From NCBI GenBank assembly GCA_030263455.1, contig SZOZ01000011.1, positions 124,001 through 188,000 on the forward strand: 64,000 bases of DNA, read 5' to 3'. Position numbers and translations under genes: made by a program. The notes below the pieces were generated by a model. That model searched no databases. It saw nothing but the letters and a program-made list of their open reading frames with translations, and was not told the DNA's origin. Source of the DNA: Synechococcales cyanobacterium CNB (GTDB lineage: Bacteria; Planctomycetota; Phycisphaerae; Phycisphaerales; UBA1924). Positions 1-6,935 of the stretch are shown piece by piece (the first letter of the stretch is position 1; every line of letters begins with the position of its first letter).

Positions 1-463
1 TCGGGCGAGAGAGAGTGGGGAGTGTACTCGGAAGCGGCTGCTGTGCTTCTAACTTCGCCTTCAGCAGCAGCTCCCACATACGCAGAGCAGTAGCATTCTG
101 CTCCTTGTTGATCTTGACATCCGCGTTCGCATCAACGTGATTCCAGAGCACGACCGTCGCCGCGGCTACGACGGCCAGCACCAGCACTACGGCCACGATG
201 GGGATGGCCGCGAGTCCAGATATCCTGGCTGGATGCTGGTCGGCCCGAATCAGCCCTCGGCGCACCGCCTCGTCGTACTTCGCCAGGTGTACAGATACGC
301 GCTGCCTCAGACGTTCGCCGAACGTCTCAACCCATCTATCCATCGCCTGGAGCTGAGCGCGCCGTCCAGGGGCCAACCGTGTTCGGTCAATGCTCGGGAG
401 CTCAGTGACGATCTTGTTGTACAGCCTGGTGACGGTAGTGAGTCCCATCATCGACCGTACCAT
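1..463 (-). CDS. Membrane protein, 3' end beyond window
   Basis: The minus-strand frame opens at an ATG at 461-463 and stays open to base 1, so the gene runs off the left edge. At least 154 residues are visible: an amphipathic N-terminal part rich in Arg and Glu, one strong transmembrane segment at about residues 83-108, then a charged helical part. An in-frame ATG at 542-544 would add 27 residues; neither start has a good ribosome site. Codons such as AGA, ATA and TTA appear and the local G+C content looks clearly lower than in the genes from 780 onward, so this segment may have another origin. No family is recognised. The topology would suit a virion or envelope membrane protein, but nothing proves it. 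Confidence 0.6.
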   Translation of the reverse strand, partial: MVRSMMGLTTVTRLYNKIVTELPSIDRTRLAPGRRAQLQAMDRWVETFGERLRQRVSVHLAKYDEAVRRGLIRADQHPARISGLAAIPIVAVVLVLAVVAAATVVLWNHVDANADVKINKEQNATALRMWELLLKAKLEAQQPLPSTLPTLSRP

Positions 464-555
464 TTGATCGCGTAGCCCCGGGAAGAGACGCCACCACAAC
501 CCAAGGTCTACAGAGCCGGTATTGTGTGTGGGGTCAACGTACATAGGGAGAACCG

Positions 556-792
556 ATGCTGCTCACATTCAACTGGTTGGAACTCAGGCCAAAGACGCGG
601 GGGGAAGTCGTCCTGGACAAACTCGCAGACTCGGCGCCGGAACTCGTACTGGCATTCATCGGCCTCATCGCTGTACTCGCCGTCTGTGAGACGATCAACT
701 GGGTTTGCAAACGCGCGATGCGAACCAAGGGGACTTTTACTCCTCCCACCCCAACTGACGACTCACCGACTCCAGGTCGCCATCCACGTTGA
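556..792 (+). CDS. Small single-span membrane protein
   Basis: This 78-residue ORF is the only plus-strand candidate in the first 6.9 kb. It starts at ATG 556, with an AGGGAG ribosome site six bases upstream. After an acidic N-terminal part it has one hydrophobic segment at about residues 29-46 and then a basic, Pro/Thr-rich tail. It is divergent from the truncated membrane gene on its left. Its last 56 bases overlap the 3' end of the minus-strand gene at 737-1027, so the two run into each other. The ribosome site and membrane segment favour a real gene; the convergent overlap and short length argue for caution. No family is recognised. Confidence 0.45.
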   Translation: MLLTFNWLELRPKTRGEVVLDKLADSAPELVLAFIGLIAVLAVCETINWVCKRAMRTKGTFTPPTPTDDSPTPGRHPR

Positions 793-1027
793 TCGCGGTG
801 CCGCCCGCCAGGTGGAGCGTGACCGTGTCGCCGCGCGTGCTCTCGATGGCGAGCACGTGGCCGACCTTCACGCGCACGGCGCCGTGTGGCCCGCTGAAGT
901 AGGCCGAACGCTTCGACCTCTCCACGCTCTCGGCGACGCGCTCCAGGGCGTTGAAGGTCTTGGCCGCAGCCTCTTCGATCATCGAGTCTGGTGGCTGCGG
1001 AAGGGCACCGTTGAGTCCGTCCATCAT
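737..1027 (-). CDS. Hypothetical protein of the compact operon (96 aa)
   Basis: A 96-residue protein, last of the packed operon. The N-terminal half (to about residue 42) is predicted helical with many Ala/Glu. The C-terminal half looks like a small beta domain with alternating Val, Thr and charged residues. There is no signal peptide or membrane segment. It starts three bases after the stop of the 160-residue membrane protein gene. A second in-frame ATG follows immediately, so the start could be one codon shorter. Its 3' end overlaps the convergent small membrane gene on the plus strand. Family not recognised. Confidence 0.6.
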   Translation of the reverse strand: MMDGLNGALPQPPDSMIEEAAAKTFNALERVAESVERSKRSAYFSGPHGAVRVKVGHVLAIESTRGDTVTLHLAGGTAINVDGDLESVSRQLGWEE

Positions 1028-1030
1028 GGT

Positions 1031-1513
1031 TCACCTCATCAACGCGAGCAGTGCGAGTGCGCCGAAGCCTACGAGCATCAGCGTGTTGTCCTGGCGAGCC
1101 GGCTGCGCCGCCGGCTGCATCGGGGGCAGCATCGTCGCCACCTGGCCCGCGGCTACGGGGAGTTGGCCGGGGAGAAGGCTCCGGATCGCGGGGCCGACGA
1201 CGGGGATGGCACCGGCCGCCGCGCCCGCCGCCGCGACCGCCATCGGCCGCAGCGCGTTCTTGATGTTCTTGAAGAGGTTCGAGAACAGCCCTTCAAGCTG
1301 CTCATCGTCGCCGGCCAGGCCGTTGAGTCCGCGCATGCGCATGTAGCGGTACAGCGCCACGACGTTATCCGCGGGCATGGCCGCGAGGATGCGGCGCTGC
1401 TCGGCGTCGGGCAGGTTGACCAGGGCGGCCGGGCTGATCGGCGCAGCGCCGAGGCCGCGGACACCGCGGCCGCAGACGCGCCGAACACACTTGCAGCGCC
1501 CCAGGTCGGTCAT
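1031..1513 (-). CDS. Membrane protein with Ala/Gly-rich hydrophobic region (160 aa)
   Basis: The 160-residue product begins with a short Cys/Arg-rich stretch, then a soluble helical part. A long Ala/Gly-rich hydrophobic segment follows at about residues 90-115, then a Pro/Gln-rich linker, and finally a clear transmembrane helix (residues about 145-159) ending in Met-Arg. The start overlaps the stop of the upstream 82-residue gene by four bases (ATGA). Two hydrophobic regions in a small basic protein are common among membrane-associated phage structural proteins and holins, but no family match is evident, so function is unassigned. Confidence 0.6.
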   Translation of the reverse strand: MTDLGRCKCVRRVCGRGVRGLGAAPISPAALVNLPDAEQRRILAAMPADNVVALYRYMRMRGLNGLAGDDEQLEGLFSNLFKNIKNALRPMAVAAAGAAAGAIPVVGPAIRSLLPGQLPVAAGQVATMLPPMQPAAQPARQDNTLMLVGFGALALLALMR

Positions 1514-1758
1514 CGCGCCCGCTCCAGCAGAGCGGCCTCCAGCGCGGCGACGCGCTGGCGGAGCTTGAGCGCCTCGCCCTTCCAGTACCCCATTGAGCGG
1601 CGCATGTGCTGGTACTTCCGCACCATCTTCGCGGCCGGTGAGCCGGGCTGGAACGTGACGCCCTGGAGGCCGTTGGATCGGCCCAGGCCGTCGAGCTCGC
1701 CGCTCTCGTCCTCGCCGAGTCCGTTCAGGATGTCCGACGCCTCATCGCGCGTGAGCAT
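1510..1758 (-). CDS. Small coiled-coil protein (82 aa)
   Basis: An 82-residue protein starting at ATG 1756-1758, two bases after the stop of the 52-residue gene upstream. The first half is acidic and glycine-rich. The second half, from about residue 45, is a basic amphipathic helix with heptad-like Leu/Ala spacing, likely a coiled coil or oligomerisation helix. Longer readings in this frame run through upstream genes and are not credible. It lies in a tight operon with membrane proteins. No family is recognised. Confidence 0.55.
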   Translation of the reverse strand: MLTRDEASDILNGLGEDESGELDGLGRSNGLQGVTFQPGSPAAKMVRKYQHMRRSMGYWKGEALKLRQRVAALEAALLERAR

Positions 1759-1760
1759 GG

Positions 1761-1919
1761 TCAATCCTCCAGGCCGATCTTGCGGAGAATGCGGCCCAGC
1801 GCACGCTCCATCGTCTTCAGCCGTTCGTCGTGTCTGCCGAGCTGGACGGCGTTGGCGACCGCCGCGGCGACGCCCGCCGCTATGACGATGACGTTGACGC
1901 CGATGAGCAGGTCCTGCAT
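1761..1919 (-). CDS. Very small membrane protein (52 aa)
   Basis: A 52-codon gene below usual ORF cut-offs. It begins at ATG 1917-1919, whose A overlaps the last base of the upstream lipoprotein gene's TGA, and ends at TGA 1761-1763. Residues 4-25 form a hydrophobic Val/Ile/Ala helix; the rest is a charged amphipathic helix. The coupling at both ends, the clean N-in/C-out-type topology and the lack of a competing ORF support it. Small proteins like this in phage operons include holins or spanin-like partners of adjacent lipoproteins, but this is only suggestive. Confidence 0.55.
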   Translation of the reverse strand: MQDLLIGVNVIVIAAGVAAAVANAVQLGRHDERLKTMERALGRILRKIGLED

Positions 1920-2437
1920 CACGACTTCGCCTTGGTGCTCGCCTCATCCCAGGCCGCGTCCGCGGCGCGGTGGACGCGCGCTCGGGCGGTCCACCCCCCC
2001 ACTGCCAGGACGACCGCCGCCACGCCCTGGACGAGTTGCTCGACGCCGACGGAGAGTGCCGCCCCTGTCTGCGGACCACCCGCCGCGGTGCCGGCGACGG
2101 CGGCCACCACGCCCGCCGTCTTCGCCCACCGATCGACGGCATCCGCCGTGGTCCGCTGAATCTCGGCGACCTCACGGGCAGCGTCCGCGGCGGCCTGCGA
2201 AGCCTCAGCCGCCTTGGTCGCGGCGGACTCGATGCGCTGCGCGTCCTCAGGCGCGATCGCCGCCGCCGCCGCCCCGATGTTGTGGGTGGCGTCGCGGAGT
2301 GCATCCGCGGCGTCGGCGAGTCGATCGGCCCGCTCGGCGTACTTCTGGGCGGCCGTGTCGCCGCACCCCAGCATCAGGGTTGCGGCCAGAAGAGCGGCGA
2401 TCACGATGACGGAGCAACGCCCGAGTCCGGTGAGCAT
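1919..2437 (-). CDS. Lipoprotein with Ala-rich coiled coil (172 aa)
   Basis: A 172-residue protein with a lipoprotein signal peptide: a hydrophobic segment at residues 9-23 and the lipobox Leu-Met-Leu-Gly-Cys with Cys25 as the expected acylated residue. The mature part is a long Ala/Asp/Glu/Arg-rich helix (about 30-105), probably a coiled coil. A hydrophobic Gly/Ala/Val stretch (about 108-150) and a basic tail follow. Its first 37 bases overlap the end of the upstream 101-residue gene. Directly downstream is the 52-residue membrane protein. The pair could be an envelope-spanning or lysis-related complex; that is inference. Confidence 0.6.
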   Translation of the reverse strand: MLTGLGRCSVIVIAALLAATLMLGCGDTAAQKYAERADRLADAADALRDATHNIGAAAAAIAPEDAQRIESAATKAAEASQAAADAAREVAEIQRTTADAVDRWAKTAGVVAAVAGTAAGGPQTGAALSVGVEQLVQGVAAVVLAVGGWTARARVHRAADAAWDEASTKAKS

Positions 2438-2706
2438 GGCTCGACCTCCGCCGGGGGGCGTTGTTCAGGTTCAGGAAGCGTACCAGATTCGCCGGGCGTG
2501 TCAAGCCCCCCCCGCCGCGCCTCGAACCAGGCGACGAGCTCCTCCAGGTAGCCGAGCGCGTTCCGGCCGTTGCGCCGCTCACGGTCGGGGAGCGGCTCCG
2601 TCCAGAGCGTCTTCTGCGTTCGCCCGTCCAGGCGTGCCCTGTCCACCAGGGCGATGACGACGCTGAGGCCGGCGACGCGCTCGGGCGTGAGTTTGGGTCG
2701 CTTCAC
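2401..2706 (-). CDS. Hypothetical protein (101 aa)
   Basis: A 101-residue protein. The first 65 residues look like a compact helical domain with basic residues and two Trp; the last 35 are a disordered Pro/Glu/Ser tail. It starts with ATGA overlap on the stop of the 257-residue gene upstream (stop 2703), and its own 3' end overlaps the lipoprotein gene start by 37 bases. A run of eight C on the plus strand (2506-2513) falls in a Gly codon pair here and could be prone to slippage. Function unknown. Confidence 0.55.
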   Translation of the reverse strand: MKRPKLTPERVAGLSVVIALVDRARLDGRTQKTLWTEPLPDRERRNGRNALGYLEELVAWFEARRGGLDTPGESGTLPEPEQRPPAEVEPCSPDSGVAPSS

Positions 2707-3476
2707 CTGATGCCCTCCGCCTTCAGGGCGGCGCAGATGCGCCGCCAGCCCTCCGCCTCCGCTTTGGCCTGCTGTTCAGTCTCGGCCTCGACGTAGGCGA
2801 TCATGGTGACCACATCCAACGCGCGCAGCTCTCGGGCGATCGCCGCCGCCTGCCTCTCCGTCACAGGCTCCGCCTGCCGCTTGCGCAGCACGGACCAGAG
2901 CTGAAGCGCCCAGGGGCGCTCAACCACGCGCATCGACTCCGTGATGACGTTGCTGATGACCTCGGCCGGATCGTGGCTCGCATCGCGGCAGTAGACCGCG
3001 GACGTGACCAGGTCTAAGTGTTCGAAGAGCGGCTTGAGGCCGTCATTCACAGACCAGTACTTTGTGAGGCGCGGTGCCCTGAGGATGTTGTAGACTGCGA
3101 CGTTGACCGATTCTGCCAGCACTGATCTGAGCGACGTGACCATCGCACCGACGCACGCCGCCCACTCGACGCTCGGGCAGCCCGTGACGTACTGCAGTGA
3201 GGTGACGGCCTCGCCGCCCTTGTCCGGCTCGTAGTTGATCTGGATGACGTGACCGGGTTGCGCCGCCTGAATCACCCCAGCGCGTGAGCGGACGAACTCC
3301 ATGAGCACAGGGATGTTCGGGAACGCCGCGTCGAACTCCGGCCGGCCGCGGGACGGAATGATCAGGTGGTGCACAGGAGGGCCGATGCTGAACCCTGACG
3401 ACACCAGGGGCCGTATGGCCACTCCGAACAGGCCTTCGCTGCCTGCGCGTTGCGGGAGTACGCGGAGCTTCGTCAT
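2703..3476 (-). CDS. Hypothetical protein (257 aa)
   Basis: A 257-residue soluble protein starting at ATG 3474-3476, which overlaps the TGA of the upstream 60-codon gene (ATGA). Its ribosome site is a run of nine G immediately upstream. The N-terminal half has alternating beta-like hydrophobic segments. The C-terminal third (from about residue 185) is strongly helical with Ala/Glu/Arg and resembles a coiled coil. There is no signal peptide, membrane helix or catalytic signature that I can name. It is the second-longest product of the operon and could be a structural or DNA-handling protein. The longer frame reading to 4061 crosses two other genes and is rejected. Confidence 0.6.
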   Translation of the reverse strand: MTKLRVLPQRAGSEGLFGVAIRPLVSSGFSIGPPVHHLIIPSRGRPEFDAAFPNIPVLMEFVRSRAGVIQAAQPGHVIQINYEPDKGGEAVTSLQYVTGCPSVEWAACVGAMVTSLRSVLAESVNVAVYNILRAPRLTKYWSVNDGLKPLFEHLDLVTSAVYCRDASHDPAEVISNVITESMRVVERPWALQLWSVLRKRQAEPVTERQAAAIARELRALDVVTMIAYVEAETEQQAKAEAEGWRRICAALKAEGIR

Positions 3477-3655
3477 TGCCCCCCCCCTTTCGTCGGAACG
3501 GTGAGCGCTGAAGCGGCCTGCGCGGCGGCGCCGACGGCCACAACGCGCGTCACGACTCGCTGACGCTGGCGTTCGTAGACGACGATGAGCGTCCAGGACC
3601 GTCCCTCTTCGTCGGTCCAGATGCGGCGGGTGAGCCGGCGTACCTTCGTCTTCAT
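3473..3655 (-). CDS. Small basic protein (60 aa)
   Basis: A 60-codon gene beginning at ATG 3653-3655, overlapping the stop of the 84-residue gene (ATGA), and ending at TGA 3473-3475, overlapping the next start. The product starts with a highly basic stretch, then a beta-like hydrophobic segment, then an Ala-rich part. It ends in a Gly run encoded by nine consecutive G (plus-strand C at 3479-3487). The double coupling is strong evidence that it is translated. No family is recognised. Confidence 0.5.
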   Translation of the reverse strand: MKTKVRRLTRRIWTDEEGRSWTLIVVYERQRQRVVTRVVAVGAAAQAASALTVPTKGGGQ

Positions 3656-3906
3656 GCGGCAACCTCCGTGTTGCAGAAGACCGCCGCGGACAGGTTCCCG
3701 TACTGCGCGGCGTGCTCCAGGTGGGAGGGGTCGATGACTCTCTTCGCCGACGCCGCGGCCGCGAACATCGAAATCCCGCTGAGCGTCGCGCCGACGCTTC
3801 GCGCGATGCGCACCGCGTGAGGCTTGCTGCCGGCCTTGACGTAGTAGACCCCGCAGCGCTTCTTGGTGTTCCTGTCGGAGACGGTGCAGTAGTACCACTT
3901 TGCCAT
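3652..3906 (-). CDS. Small protein with basic N-terminal beta hairpin (84 aa)
   Basis: An 84-residue protein whose N-terminal 30 residues have an aromatic/basic pattern (Trp-Tyr-Tyr-Cys, paired Lys, Tyr-Tyr-Val) suggesting a small beta domain with two Cys. An Ala-rich helical segment follows. It is translationally coupled to the following 60-codon gene by an ATGA overlap, and lies 21 bases after the transglutaminase-like gene. Such small basic proteins in phage operons often bind nucleic acid, but no match is evident. Confidence 0.55.
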   Translation of the reverse strand: MAKWYYCTVSDRNTKKRCGVYYVKAGSKPHAVRIARSVGATLSGISMFAAAASAKRVIDPSHLEHAAQYGNLSAAVFCNTEVAA

Positions 3907-3927
3907 CGGGGGGCTTCCTCTCTGCCG

Positions 3928-4521
3928 CTACTGGCGGACGTGAAGGGTGTACGTGCGCTTCCGCGCCGCCGGGAGCTCCTCTCCAGGCAGCGCGGTTTCC
4001 TGCGGATCGAACGCGACGTGACGGCCCGTGTGGGTCCACGCGCCGAAGTAGATGTGCTCATAGGGGCCCTTCGGGTCGCGGCCGATCACGGTGAGCGTCG
4101 GCGTGTACCCGGCGTTGCGCACCATCGACGCGCCGAGCGCCGCCAGGTCGTCACAGTCGCCCTCTGCCGAGCCGTTGGCGATGATCGTCGCCGCGAAGGT
4201 GTCGGGCATGGTCGGGAGCTCGACGCCGACCGGGTCGCGCTTGAACCGCACGCGCCGCTTGAGGACCAGGTGCACCCCGTAAAGGGTGTGCGGGATGCCC
4301 GCCTGGTATGCGGCGCGGTGCACCGGCGCCGTCAGCCCGAGGGCCGACGCCTCCCAAAGCAGCCGCTTGACGTAGGCCATCCGATCGGAGCGCTTCACCA
4401 TCGCGCGGATGGCCTGCACGGTGGCCTCGACTCGCTCGTCTGCATCGGACGGCAGGGGCACGGAGAGTGTGGCGTTGAACGGGTACGGCCGGCCGGACTC
4501 GGTGATGCGAGCGTTCAGCAT
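3928..4521 (-). CDS. Transglutaminase-like (papain-fold) protein
   Basis: A 197-residue protein. The C-terminal half has the arrangement of the transglutaminase-like cysteine-protease superfamily. Cys123 lies in a Gly-Asp-Cys-Asp-Asp context at the start of an Ala-rich helix, followed by His156 in Tyr-Glu-His and Asp172 in Phe-Asp-Pro. That order and spacing match the Cys-His-Asp triad of microbial transglutaminase-like proteins. The N-terminal 115 residues resemble no named domain. Members of this superfamily occur in phage genomes as peptidases or amidases and in bacteria as peptidoglycan or protein-processing enzymes. The start at 4521 is coupled to the preceding gene by an 7-base overlap. 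The triad is seen; the substrate is unknown. Confidence 0.65.
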   Translation of the reverse strand: MLNARITESGRPYPFNATLSVPLPSDADERVEATVQAIRAMVKRSDRMAYVKRLLWEASALGLTAPVHRAAYQAGIPHTLYGVHLVLKRRVRFKRDPVGVELPTMPDTFAATIIANGSAEGDCDDLAALGASMVRNAGYTPTLTVIGRDPKGPYEHIYFGAWTHTGRHVAFDPQETALPGEELPAARKRTYTLHVRQ

Positions 4522-4763
4522 TGCGCGGACTCCTGCTTGAAGCGGCGAGCCTCGCCCGGCGTCGCCAGGCGGACTACCTCGACGTGCCTGGGCAGAACGT
4601 TCGGCGAGGTTGGATGACGGGGACGACGCTTCGAGTGAGAGAGCCACCAGATGTAGGGCCGTCCTCGGTTCGAGACTGAATGCACCTGGCCGAACCACAG
4701 GGTTCCGCGCTCGACGTTGCGCAGCATGACGATGTCGCCGGTCTTCGGTGTGAGTCCGATCAA
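4515..4763 (-). CDS. Small SH3-like basic protein, TTG start (82 aa)
   Basis: An 82-residue protein that appears to start at TTG 4761-4763. The TTG overlaps the TGA stop of the upstream gene (TTGA), with GGAGG six bases before it. The longer ATG reading to 4844 lies inside the upstream gene and has shadow-like composition. The product opens with a Gly-Asp-Ile-Val motif followed by alternating hydrophobic/aromatic strands, typical of small SH3-like or KOW-like beta barrels, and ends in a basic helical tail. Function not assigned; the start choice rests on the ribosome site and coupling. Confidence 0.5.
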   Translation of the reverse strand: MIGLTPKTGDIVMLRNVERGTLWFGQVHSVSNRGRPYIWWLSHSKRRPRHPTSPNVLPRHVEVVRLATPGEARRFKQESAQC

Positions 4764-5035
4764 TGTGCACCTCCGTTGCCGCCGATCTGGCCGTTGTGCT
4801 CGGGCTTGATGAGGACGGGGCCGCGGGGCTGGGGCTGTCCGCACAGCGCCGCGTAGACCGACTCCGGGCCGGCAGACATGACGATGCCCCCCCCTTGCCG
4901 AAGAAAGAGCAGCGTCGTACCCATGTTCGGACCCGGTCCGATGAGCGAGACTTCCGACGGGTCGATGCGGTAGAGGCCGGCCTGGGTGTGGACGGTGACG
5001 AGTCGGTCGGAGAGGGCTTCACTGGCCTTGTTCAT
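4760..5035 (-). CDS. Hypothetical protein (91 aa)
   Basis: A 91-residue protein whose start at 5035 lies 16 bases inside the end of the 367-residue gene. The first 60 residues show alternating Val/Leu strands around Gly turns, suggesting a small beta domain. The tail is Pro/Gly-rich. A G8 tract (plus-strand C at 4887-4894) encodes part of a Gly run in the middle of the protein. Its stop is fused to the next gene's TTG start. No family is recognised. Confidence 0.5.
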   Translation of the reverse strand: MNKASEALSDRLVTVHTQAGLYRIDPSEVSLIGPGPNMGTTLLFLRQGGGIVMSAGPESVYAALCGQPQPRGPVLIKPEHNGQIGGNGGAH

Positions 5036-6122
5036 TGGGCGTCTCCTGATCGGCGTACAGGGCGCACACGGCCTCGCACACCGACGTGAGGTACGGGGTG
5101 GGGTCTATCTCCGTCGAGCGCAGGAACGCCTCCAGGTCGCTCGCGGAGCACGGGAGTTCCGGCGCCGACTCATCGCGCTCGAGCAGGTCGGCCACGGCGG
5201 GCGCGATCGACTCCGGCGACAAGCCCTGCGAGGAGCCGAAGCCGATGGCCAGCGCGTAAGGGTTGAGCGTCAGCGCGTCGAGTGGCGTCGCCGGTGGGGG
5301 CGGCGCGGGCGGACGCTCGGGAACGGCCGCCGGCTGCGCGGTCGCGGTGGGCGCCGGCGGGATCGCGCGAGGGATCGGCGCCGGCGCGCGAGGCGGGGGG
5401 AGGGGCTGGGACGATCGCGTCGCTCTCAGCATGGCCATGAGCTCCGCGATGACGGGCGTCCACTCGCCCCCCCCACTCCCGCCCTCGGCGCCACCACCAG
5501 GCGACAGGGCTTGCAGGTCGCGCATGGCCGCGACCAGGTCCGATATCTGGCCGCGCTGGCTGGCCAGTTCGATGATGTCCCGCGTGCGCAGCCCTTCACC
5601 GCGCAGCGCCTTGATGAGCTCCGCGACCGCCGGCATCGCGCCGAGCAGCGCCGACCAGGGCGGGGCTGAGGAACGCGACTCGGTCGGCGCCCGCGAGGCG
5701 AGCGCTTCGATCATGCCTCGCAGCTCGCGGACCTCCGCGGCCAGGTCGCTTCCCGACGGTCCGGGCGACTCGGGCTTGTAGAGCTCGACCGCCGCGGGGT
5801 CGATCGAAAGCGCCGCGGTTGTCACGATCACGCCGAGCCGATCGCGCAGCTGGAGCAGGAAGCGTCCGGCTCCAGCCGCTTTGACCAGGCGAGCCTCATC
5901 GAAGAGCGCGACTGGGCCGCTCCACACGCTTGCGGGGCGAGCCTCCCCCTCCGCTTGGCGCATGACCACCAGGCGGTAACTGTCGGCCTCTCCGCCGGCG
6001 AGCTCGATGGCGCGCGCAACGCGGTCGATGCCGTCAAACTCGGCGAGCTCGGCGCGCAGGTGCTCGTATCGGCTTCGCCGCGGTGCCGCTGTGGCGGTGG
6101 TCTGGTCGGTCTCCGGTGGCAT
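5019..6122 (-). CDS. Proline-rich multidomain protein (367 aa)
   Basis: This is the longest product of the operon. Residues about 15-115 form a mixed alpha/beta domain. A helical region follows at 125-235 with Leu/Ala heptads, interrupted by a Gly/Ser linker at about 210-220 that contains a C8/G8 tract. Residues 240-290 are almost entirely Pro and Ala. The C-terminal 70 residues are again helical and acidic, with two Cys. It has no signal peptide or membrane segment. The layout of a folded N-terminal domain, coiled region, Pro/Ala linker and acidic C-terminal domain suggests a scaffolding or adaptor protein. It lies six bases after the first gene of the operon. Confidence 0.55.
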   Translation of the reverse strand: MPPETDQTTATAAPRRSRYEHLRAELAEFDGIDRVARAIELAGGEADSYRLVVMRQAEGEARPASVWSGPVALFDEARLVKAAGAGRFLLQLRDRLGVIVTTAALSIDPAAVELYKPESPGPSGSDLAAEVRELRGMIEALASRAPTESRSSAPPWSALLGAMPAVAELIKALRGEGLRTRDIIELASQRGQISDLVAAMRDLQALSPGGGAEGGSGGGEWTPVIAELMAMLRATRSSQPLPPPRAPAPIPRAIPPAPTATAQPAAVPERPPAPPPPATPLDALTLNPYALAIGFGSSQGLSPESIAPAVADLLERDESAPELPCSASDLEAFLRSTEIDPTPYLTSVCEAVCALYADQETPNEQGQ

Positions 6123-6128
6123 GGTCGG

Positions 6129-6842
6129 TCACTCCTCGGAAGGGACGTACCGCGGCAGGCCGCTCCGACGTGCGCGGAGCACTTGAACCACGGCGGGCAC
6201 CCACGAACGCATGAGGCAGATTTCGCGGACGGTCTGGCCGTGCACCTCTACGAGGTCACGCACTCGCGCGTGGAGCTGATCTCTGCGCTCCTGCGTGCTC
6301 TCACGCCCGATGACCTCCTGGAGGAGCTCGTGCACCTCGGCGTCGCTCATGTTGTCGATGGCGTCGATCGTCTCTTCGCGGTCGCGGTCGTACTGCATGA
6401 CCCACCTCCTGGCGTCGGTCTCGGAATCGAAGTTGTCTCGGACGGCCTTGAACAATCGCGCTCGCCGCTCCTCACCGTGCCAGTCGTGACGCAAGCATCC
6501 GAACAGGCGCTGCGCGGTGATGGCGCGACCGCTGGCGCGTTTGCGCTCGTACTGGACCGCCTCGCGGACGAATCGCGGCGAACGATGAGCGAGGATCGTG
6601 TCGGCCTGGTTCAGCGTGATGCCGTGTTCGAGGAGCAGGCTCAGTGCCTTCTCCCGCGCAGCACCGCGCTTCGCGGCGGCGGGGTCGGCGGCGGCGGCTT
6701 CGCGCGCGCCTCCGTCCCTCCCTCCGCCTCCCTCCGCCTCCCTGTCTTTCTGCCTTTGGTATTCTCGGGGGGACTGGGGGGGGACAGCAACCCCCCGATT
6801 TTGGCGAACCTCTACGCCGTTAGTGGTGTGAGGATACGCCAT
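6129..6842 (-). CDS. Putative replication-initiator-like/DNA-binding protein
   Basis: This 237-residue product of the first operon gene has a disordered, charged N-terminal 60 residues. At about 65-125 comes a helical segment reading 'leu-leu-leu-glu-his-gly-ile', ending in a Leu-Arg-His-Asp-Trp motif. The pattern of a short helix, an Ala-Arg recognition-type segment and 'R-x-D-W' resembles the C-terminal part of many plasmid and phage replication initiators, where a 'xx-I-R-E-D-W' ending is common. The last 100 residues are helical and highly charged. The similarity is by eye only. The in-frame ATG at 6980 would overlap hutH and is not preferred; no good ribosome site is seen at 6842. A G8 tract (6776-6783) falls in its N-terminal coding part. 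Confidence 0.5.
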   Translation of the reverse strand: MAYPHTTNGVEVRQNRGVAVPPQSPREYQRQKDREAEGGGGRDGGAREAAAADPAAAKRGAAREKALSLLLEHGITLNQADTILAHRSPRFVREAVQYERKRASGRAITAQRLFGCLRHDWHGEERRARLFKAVRDNFDSETDARRWVMQYDRDREETIDAIDNMSDAEVHELLQEVIGRESTQERRDQLHARVRDLVEVHGQTVREICLMRSWVPAVVQVLRARRSGLPRYVPSEE

Positions 6843-6935
6843 TTTTGACGTAACCGCTATTCTCGGACTGGGCAGGGGGGTGACGCAGTTTCGGCGTTGC
6901 CAGGCGGTAATCGACGGGCGAGACTTGGGCAACAG

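Follow-up and report, generated by a model that had tools for sequence, protein, structure and literature searches.

The window analysed here is a stretch of 64,000 nucleotides (contig C11, SZOZ01000011.1, positions 124,001 to 188,000) from the genome, G000, of a Phycisphaerales bacterium. At its left end, the minus strand carries 14 intact open reading frames (ORFs), A to N, running from position 6842 down to 737. Nine of the 13 junctions between them are overlaps, of 1 base once, of 4 bases five times and of 7, 17 and 37 bases once each, while the remaining four are gaps of 2, 3, 6 and 21 bases; start codons were our choice, that of D being taken as TTG. The first-pass annotation, made from the sequence alone, had described a compact 14-gene operon of unrecognised proteins and a candidate integrated virus or plasmid module. 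The compactness was borne out, as was the obscurity of the products. Scans of 13 of the 14 ORFs (K, with 52 amino acids (aa), was left out) gave nothing over the Pfam cut-off (best E-value 0.0097) and only weak PHROGs matches, the best of which (0.0035) was to a family of unknown function. The extent, on the other hand, had to be revised. The region 737-6842 is only a fragment, since the window edge cuts a same-strand run which continues for about 5 kb to the left and comprises O, P, Q, R, S, T, U, V and a helix-turn-helix (HTH) gene, W. Here we show that the block belongs to an integrated element. This element, of which the block forms the right half, is likely to be a temperate, icosahedral and probably tailless virus infecting a Phycisphaerales bacterium and inserted at the chromosomal site dif.

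The ends of the element were located by an exact 18-bp direct repeat, one copy of which lies left of the window at C11:118,864-118,881, while the other begins at C11:130,851 (window position 6851). The next-longest match between the two element sides is 10 bases only. The insert between the copies measures 11,987 bp, and the window holds its right 57%. In G299, a genome of the same genus, both flanks align at 80-83% and the insert is absent; this empty site is the only such site in G299, with 1 mismatch in 25. The terminal duplication and the empty site in a sister genome therefore confirmed that the block is part of an integrated element. The GC content of the element is no different from that of the rest of the window, and its codon usage and GC are host-like.

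The place of insertion was then compared among relatives. dif is the place where a cell separates its two finished chromosomes, and one half of the insertion site resembles the XerD arm of E. coli dif. A degenerate dif pattern, derived from the sites of G000, G370, G351 and G596 (that of G299 being known beforehand), was found in 14 of 16 genomes, once in 13 of them and twice in G000, where the copies flank the insert. Reversed-pattern controls gave 0 matches in all, and in G095 and G316 there was none within two mismatches. Nine of the 11 genomes whose site had not been seen before held exactly one match. The position of the terminus was measured in relatives, by distance from dnaA in G370 and G397 and by GC skew in G370. 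In the single contig of G370 (3,841,330 bases), the site at 3,243,184 and the better DnaA-family hit at 1,402,330 are 48% apart; the weaker of the two hits, at 2,195,645, would put the site 27% away. Among twenty 20-kb samples of this contig, GC skew was negative in eight (1 to 1.42 Mb), positive in nine (1.6 to 3.17 Mb) and again negative in three (from 3.30 Mb), and hence flips at dnaA and at the site. In G397, also a single contig, the better dnaA hit and the site are separated by 49% of the chromosome. The insertion site thus behaves as dif, being single-copy in relatives and, in the two measured, lying at the replication terminus.

Most of the related elements, described below, showed the same preference. 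Dif-like sites were present at both element ends in G000, G370, G351 and G312, at the readable end in G596, and once inside the closed G352 contig. In the four two-ended elements the site centre is identical left and right and a full XerD-like arm is found on one side only, which is the pattern expected of a single exchange between dif and the attachment site of the element (attP). hutH adjoins the site in G000, G351, G596 and G312, and proS lies on its other side in G000, G351 and G312 (these genes, and hutU, were named by eye); the neighbours are constant because dif occupies that place.

Matches to E were found in 9 of the 350 genomes of the order, this one included. Since one of them, G447 (2.2e-5), carries no other gene of the element, the related loci in the order number seven and not eight. 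In direct tblastn/blastp searches of these loci E was hit in 7/7, S, T and U in four each, V in three, and M and R in one or two. With this genome left out of their construction, profiles run against 98 test proteins recovered B (2.4e-10), E (2.2e-31), M (4.5e-12), O (2.3e-12), Q (6e-5), R (2.8e-11), S (3.8e-21), T (1.1e-30), U (1.6e-34) and V (4.1e-26), with C at 0.018; pairwise, B had given no significant hit to the seven loci. The order B-E-M-O-Q-R-S-T-U-V on a single strand was kept in every locus for the families present, with gaps and contig ends occurring (O of G370, L024, was placed by position and not by a hit; S, T and U of G312 come from its second contig, and V of G596 from a contig start). 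Protein clustering across the loci left A, D, F-L, N, P, W and a plus-strand ORF without a partner. The gene order, which the first-pass annotation had proposed to look for in other planctomycetes, is therefore common to seven further genomes from the order. E, S, T, U and V occur as a set and not singly in unrelated contexts, nor is the block a core-genome feature, given the frequency of E in the order and of U in the class (2 of 397 genomes, this one included).

Across the phylum, the E alignment found matches, most of them weak, in 19 of 392 genomes, G000 and G370 among them. Among six distant E loci, E is accompanied by S- and T-like genes in G107 only; in L098, L100, L102 and L103 it is the sole match. 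An S match in G085 (5e-5, one internal stop) sits among unrelated genes and was dropped. Scans of IMG/VR with S, E, H, the U alignment, the E alignment and the U protein of G351 returned no relative.

Some members of the group carry additional genes. The G370 element (L024:16160-18126) has a tyrosine recombinase, a ParE-like toxin gene and a GIY-YIG-like gene, and relatives of the last are present in L026 (G352) and L027. In G351, a gene beside V (L025:2724-3671) scored just over the Pfam cut-off for Glyco_hydro_56 and is possibly a lytic or receptor enzyme, and a gene beside the left site (L025:1273-1746) is excisionase-like with an HTH (TIGR01764, 8.8e-5, below cut-off).

The strongest link to a known virus came from E. 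The first-pass annotation had called it transglutaminase-like. Its own Pfam match to that family is sub-threshold (0.038); a distant homologue in G107 lies over the transglutaminase cut-off (6.6e-11). Among 50,697 phage records, tblastn matched E to gp34 of SSIP-1 (4e-4), and a profile comparison in a small set gave 7.9e-20; gp34 is annotated as structural. The available text of PMC6356626 and PMC5332951 describes SSIP-1 as a tailless membrane phage with two types of major capsid protein. By sequence, E is a homologue of this virion protein, and it probably acts on the cell wall at entry. No match to E was found in 72,556 plasmid records. In G107, a genome of the same phylum, E-like (6.8e-12), S-like (7.9e-5) and T-like (1.3e-5) genes follow one another in that order on one strand, and after them comes an ATPase gene matching gp40 of SSIP-1 (5.7e-8); R was placed there by position and appearance only. 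This provirus (L099:1403-10237) resides in a 9.5-Mb planctomycete. A further locus, L101:237-10140 (G097), holds several S-like genes near an E-like gene and no T, and one of its S-like proteins matched the capsid protein of phiCjT23 at 0.003. An SSIP-1-like provirus was also seen in a metagenome-assembled genome of Aliifodinibius sp. (L077, CAJXMW010000005.1), with matches to gp33, gp34, primase, ATPase and gp45-gp47.

The first-pass annotation had seen no hallmark gene and suggested that one might lie to the left. Capsid candidates, S among them, do lie there; a packaging ATPase and a recombinase were not found in this element. S was folded from alignment rows of three relatives, and the model (predicted local distance difference test score (pLDDT) 52.6, predicted template modelling score (pTM) 0.52) is one sandwich of about eight strands plus helices. 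Virus capsid or cement proteins make up 48 of its 50 best Foldseek rows in the PDB, the other two being pro-BMP9. S is hence, from a low-confidence model, a candidate jelly-roll capsid protein. The T model (pLDDT 62.0, pTM 0.55) matched one small capsid in the PDB (TM-score 0.46). Weak PHROG matches linked V with a virion structural family (0.026) and B with head scaffolding (0.27). In the phage records S had two rows at an E-value of 4 and U and T had none; profile searches of PDB sequences for S and E turned up no credible match. The VIA list for S held no sphaerolipovirus capsid, which proves nothing.

Genes at the two ends of the element suggested how it might replicate. In a related genome, contig G352:C53:1-10807 (L026, JAGLTS010000039.1) of 10,807 bp has identical 21 bases at both ends, and closing it gives 10,786 bp with one open frame of 356 codons over the join; this contig is probably the circular extrachromosomal form of a related element. 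The joined frame begins HTH-like, as judged by eye, and ends in a C-terminal part, with a 23-bp repeat midway along the gene. In G312 the HTH-like part crosses the attachment site at one element end and the C-terminal part lies at the other, and joining the ends yields one open frame of 383 codons; integration thus cuts this gene in G312. In the element described here, W (L002:11767-12243) crosses the attachment site at the left end and reads through into the chromosome, giving 158 aa when integrated as against 136 aa in the circle, while A starts at the right end. W contains two 19-bp repeats, 22 bp apart. In the circle W and A would overlap by about 20 bases in different frames, which indicates coupling and not fusion. 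A resembles its G352 counterpart marginally (5.7e-4 in a set of seven proteins), and NCBIfam models gave no lead for A, E or W. W and A may represent a replication initiator. Other members carry a different one, an HUH Rep scoring over the Pfam cut-off in G351 and G464; HUH Rep (PF23343) was absent from G000, and the six-frame ORFs of this element held no convincing HUH motif.

Table 1. Features of the element in and beside the window (positions are those of the window; hydrophobic stretches in J, K, M and O were judged by eye)
Feature	Position	Strand	Description
Right 18-bp repeat copy	6851..6868	.	core of right attachment site; dif-like stretch 6848-6868
A	6129..6842	-	237 aa; possible C-terminal part of a putative replication initiator
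B	5019..6122	-	367 aa; Pro-rich middle; family in all 7 related loci; role perhaps in assembly
C	4760..5035	-	91 aa; weak relatives in 2 loci (0.018)
D	4515..4763	-	82 aa; TTG start assumed; relatives: none found
E	3928..4521	-	197 aa; transglutaminase-like; homologue, by sequence, of SSIP-1 virion protein gp34
F	3652..3906	-	84 aa
G	3473..3655	-	60 aa
H	2703..3476	-	257 aa; no relatives in IMG/VR or related loci
I	2401..2706	-	101 aa
J	1919..2437	-	172 aa; lipoprotein-like start (by eye) and hydrophobic stretches
K	1761..1919	-	52 aa; one hydrophobic stretch
L	1510..1758	-	82 aa
M	1031..1513	-	160 aa; hydrophobic C-terminus; family in 5 related loci
N	737..1027	-	96 aa
Possible opposite-strand gene	556..792	+	78 aa; hydrophobic stretch; ORF only, faces against the other element genes
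O	1..544	-	219 aa, runs off window (whole gene L002:16885-17544); two hydrophobic stretches
P, Q, R, S, T, U, V, W	left of window, up to left attachment site		S, jelly-roll candidate; W, HTH

Genes of other kinds of element were also sought. When 143 proteins from eight elements (several incomplete) and the six-frame ORFs of this element were searched for the Walker A motif, four matches resulted, none in a protein resembling an ATPase. No recombinase gene was found in this element; nine Phage_integrase-family genes lie elsewhere in the host genome, and XerC and XerD are expected among them, not assigned singly. Terminase, portal and tail genes gave no Pfam match over cut-off, PHROG matches were weak throughout, and a tailed prophage (Caudoviricetes) was rejected on that ground. 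A conjugative plasmid fragment was likewise rejected, as Pfam/PHROG scans gave no relaxase or transfer match. A Zot-type assembly ATPase, as in inoviruses, appeared neither in the motif scan nor in the Pfam/PHROG scans.

Among the virus, satellite and plasmid offered by the first-pass annotation, the virus withstood these tests, given the homology of E to a virion protein and the location of the related elements mostly at dif-like sites. A viral nature is indicated by E, by the jelly-roll-like model of S and by the G107 provirus, in which E-, S- and T-like genes stand beside an SSIP-1-type ATPase; the form of the virion, the type of genome and the use of Xer we infer. The case for a virus is strong, and its capsid architecture putative. 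In such a virus, S and T, perhaps with U, would build the shell, U and V might be spike or receptor-binding proteins, an internal membrane would house the small hydrophobic proteins J, K, M, O and R, and the cell wall would be the target of E. Joining of attP to dif would fall to XerC and XerD of the host, this element having yielded no recombinase gene. After excision, the circle would rely for its replication on the HTH-type initiator, W with A, and integration would separate the parts of that initiator, as the cut gene of G312 and the opposite positions of the putative parts here suggest; lysogeny might then switch replication off by recombination alone.

Several observations weigh against this interpretation. 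Neither a packaging ATPase (by the motif scan) nor a lysis gene was found, and no particle is known. The S model is of low confidence, its Foldseek TM-scores are 0.11-0.33 with one row at an E-value of 0.001 or below, and in VIA, where Z reached 6.1 at most, capsids (SPV1 5.9, 147 residues) stood level with furin/Kex2 domains. The T model matched mostly influenza haemagglutinin heads in the PDB and mixed viral proteins in BFVD. S against gp45/46 and R against gp44 of SSIP-1 gave no significant match, and T against gp47 was marginal (0.0017-0.048; hhalign probability 25%). As regards integration, the G370 element encodes its own tyrosine recombinase and is inverted relative to dif when compared with the other three two-ended elements, and the readable end of the G321 element has no dif-like site, the dif of G321 being on another contig. 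As regards the initiator, W and A are out of frame in this element, the W match to HTH_36 (3.5e-4) is below cut-off, the G312 HTH scores 0.1, and the site leaves the corresponding gene uncut in G370 and G352.

The first alternative is a dif-integrating plasmid, or a phage satellite without a capsid of its own, in which the beta-rich proteins S-V would serve at the surface or in adhesion and any transfer would occur through a helper or by conjugation. The missing packaging ATPase would fit such an element, as would the G352 relative, which resembles a 10.8-kb plasmid-like circle with its own HTH-type gene. This explanation stays, though weaker, because the capsid identity of S and T depends on low-confidence models and distant homology. 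Against it stand the homology of E to an SSIP-1 virion protein, the failure of E to match any of the plasmid records, the nearly exclusive match of the S model to viral capsids, and G107, where S- and T-like genes stand beside E and an SSIP-1-type ATPase. Moreover, a packaging ATPase is also missing from two virus groups, FLiP and the Odin group, as far as the accessible part of PMC5894146 describes them. We therefore consider a plasmid or satellite unlikely.

A relative of the finnlakeviruses (FLiP/phiCjT23 group), with single-stranded DNA (ssDNA), a double-jelly-roll capsid, rolling-circle replication and dif integration, is very unlikely. It would account for the HUH Rep genes of G351 and G464 and for the negative ATPase scan, and the phiCjT23 capsid protein (239 aa) is close in length to S (235 aa) and matches the S-like protein of L101 noted above; phiCjT23 prophages are dif-flanked in the available portion of PMC9719478. 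However, the S, T, U and E profiles gave no significant match to phiCjT23 proteins, the S model, at its low confidence, is one sandwich of about eight strands and not two, HUH Rep was not found in this genome, and E points to SSIP-1 rather than to this group. A resident chromosomal operon or decayed prophage, to which host-like codon usage and GC and the failure to find a lysis or recombinase gene in this element might point, is highly improbable in view of the same-genus empty site in G299, the intactness of all 14 window ORFs and the few genomes that carry the block.

Within the preferred interpretation of a dif-integrated virus, a more specific proposal can be made, tentatively. The group may consist of ATPase-less, SSIP-1-related jelly-roll viruses of Planctomycetota with genomes of about 11-14 kb, which swap rolling-circle and HTH initiators, are perhaps ssDNA viruses, and are the equivalent of FLiP with a single jelly roll. 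Where attP lay within the initiator gene, as proposed for some members, integration at dif would split the initiator and excision would mend it, and recombination by itself would act as the lysogeny switch. Taken jointly, these two ideas seem to us possible rather than probable. The split initiator is directly testable.

If the interpretation is correct, the viruses of planctomycetes are extended by a lineage whose ends are defined, whose docking site and empty site are known, and of which one related genome is apparently closed. The group was missed by Pfam, PHROG and IMG/VR scans, and similar viruses may therefore be widely overlooked; in the open-licence literature we found no report of this planctomycete element group. 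The finding bears on ATPase-free DNA packaging by small jelly-roll viruses, on recombination between capsid and replication genes, and on dif as a docking site common to unrelated viruses.

Among known systems, SSIP-1 shares with this element the homologous pair gp34 and E, and its hydrophobic gp44 followed by gp45-gp47 recalls R followed by S and T. In contrast, the SSIP-1 genome is 43.8 kb long and includes an ATPase, an endolysin and an annotated integrase, while this element has 12.0 kb with none of these recognised, and S and R do not significantly match gp45/46 and gp44. P23-77 and the sphaerolipoviruses have larger genomes and a packaging ATPase. A possible pair of capsid proteins from adjacent genes is a likeness to them, although no direct sequence match was obtained; SSIP-1 itself is grouped with the single-jelly-roll viruses having two major capsid proteins in the available text of PMC5332951. 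phiCjT23 and FLiP resemble this element in their small genomes, in prophages at dif (in Flavobacterium) and in having no packaging ATPase, so far as the accessible parts of PMC9719478 and PMC5894146 go, and a tailless lipid phage at dif is thus already known from phiCjT23 (PMC9719478). Rolling-circle Rep in two relatives of this element adds to that likeness, while hosts, the E gene and gene order differ, the capsid candidates are without a match and this element has no HUH Rep. CTXphi integrates at dif by host XerC/XerD, and the best-known Xer-exploiting elements are filamentous phages. The element described here similarly lies at dif, has one junction with a full XerD-like arm and has yielded no recombinase of its own; it differs in that it would use XerC/XerD to install another set of genes, probably those of an icosahedral virus.

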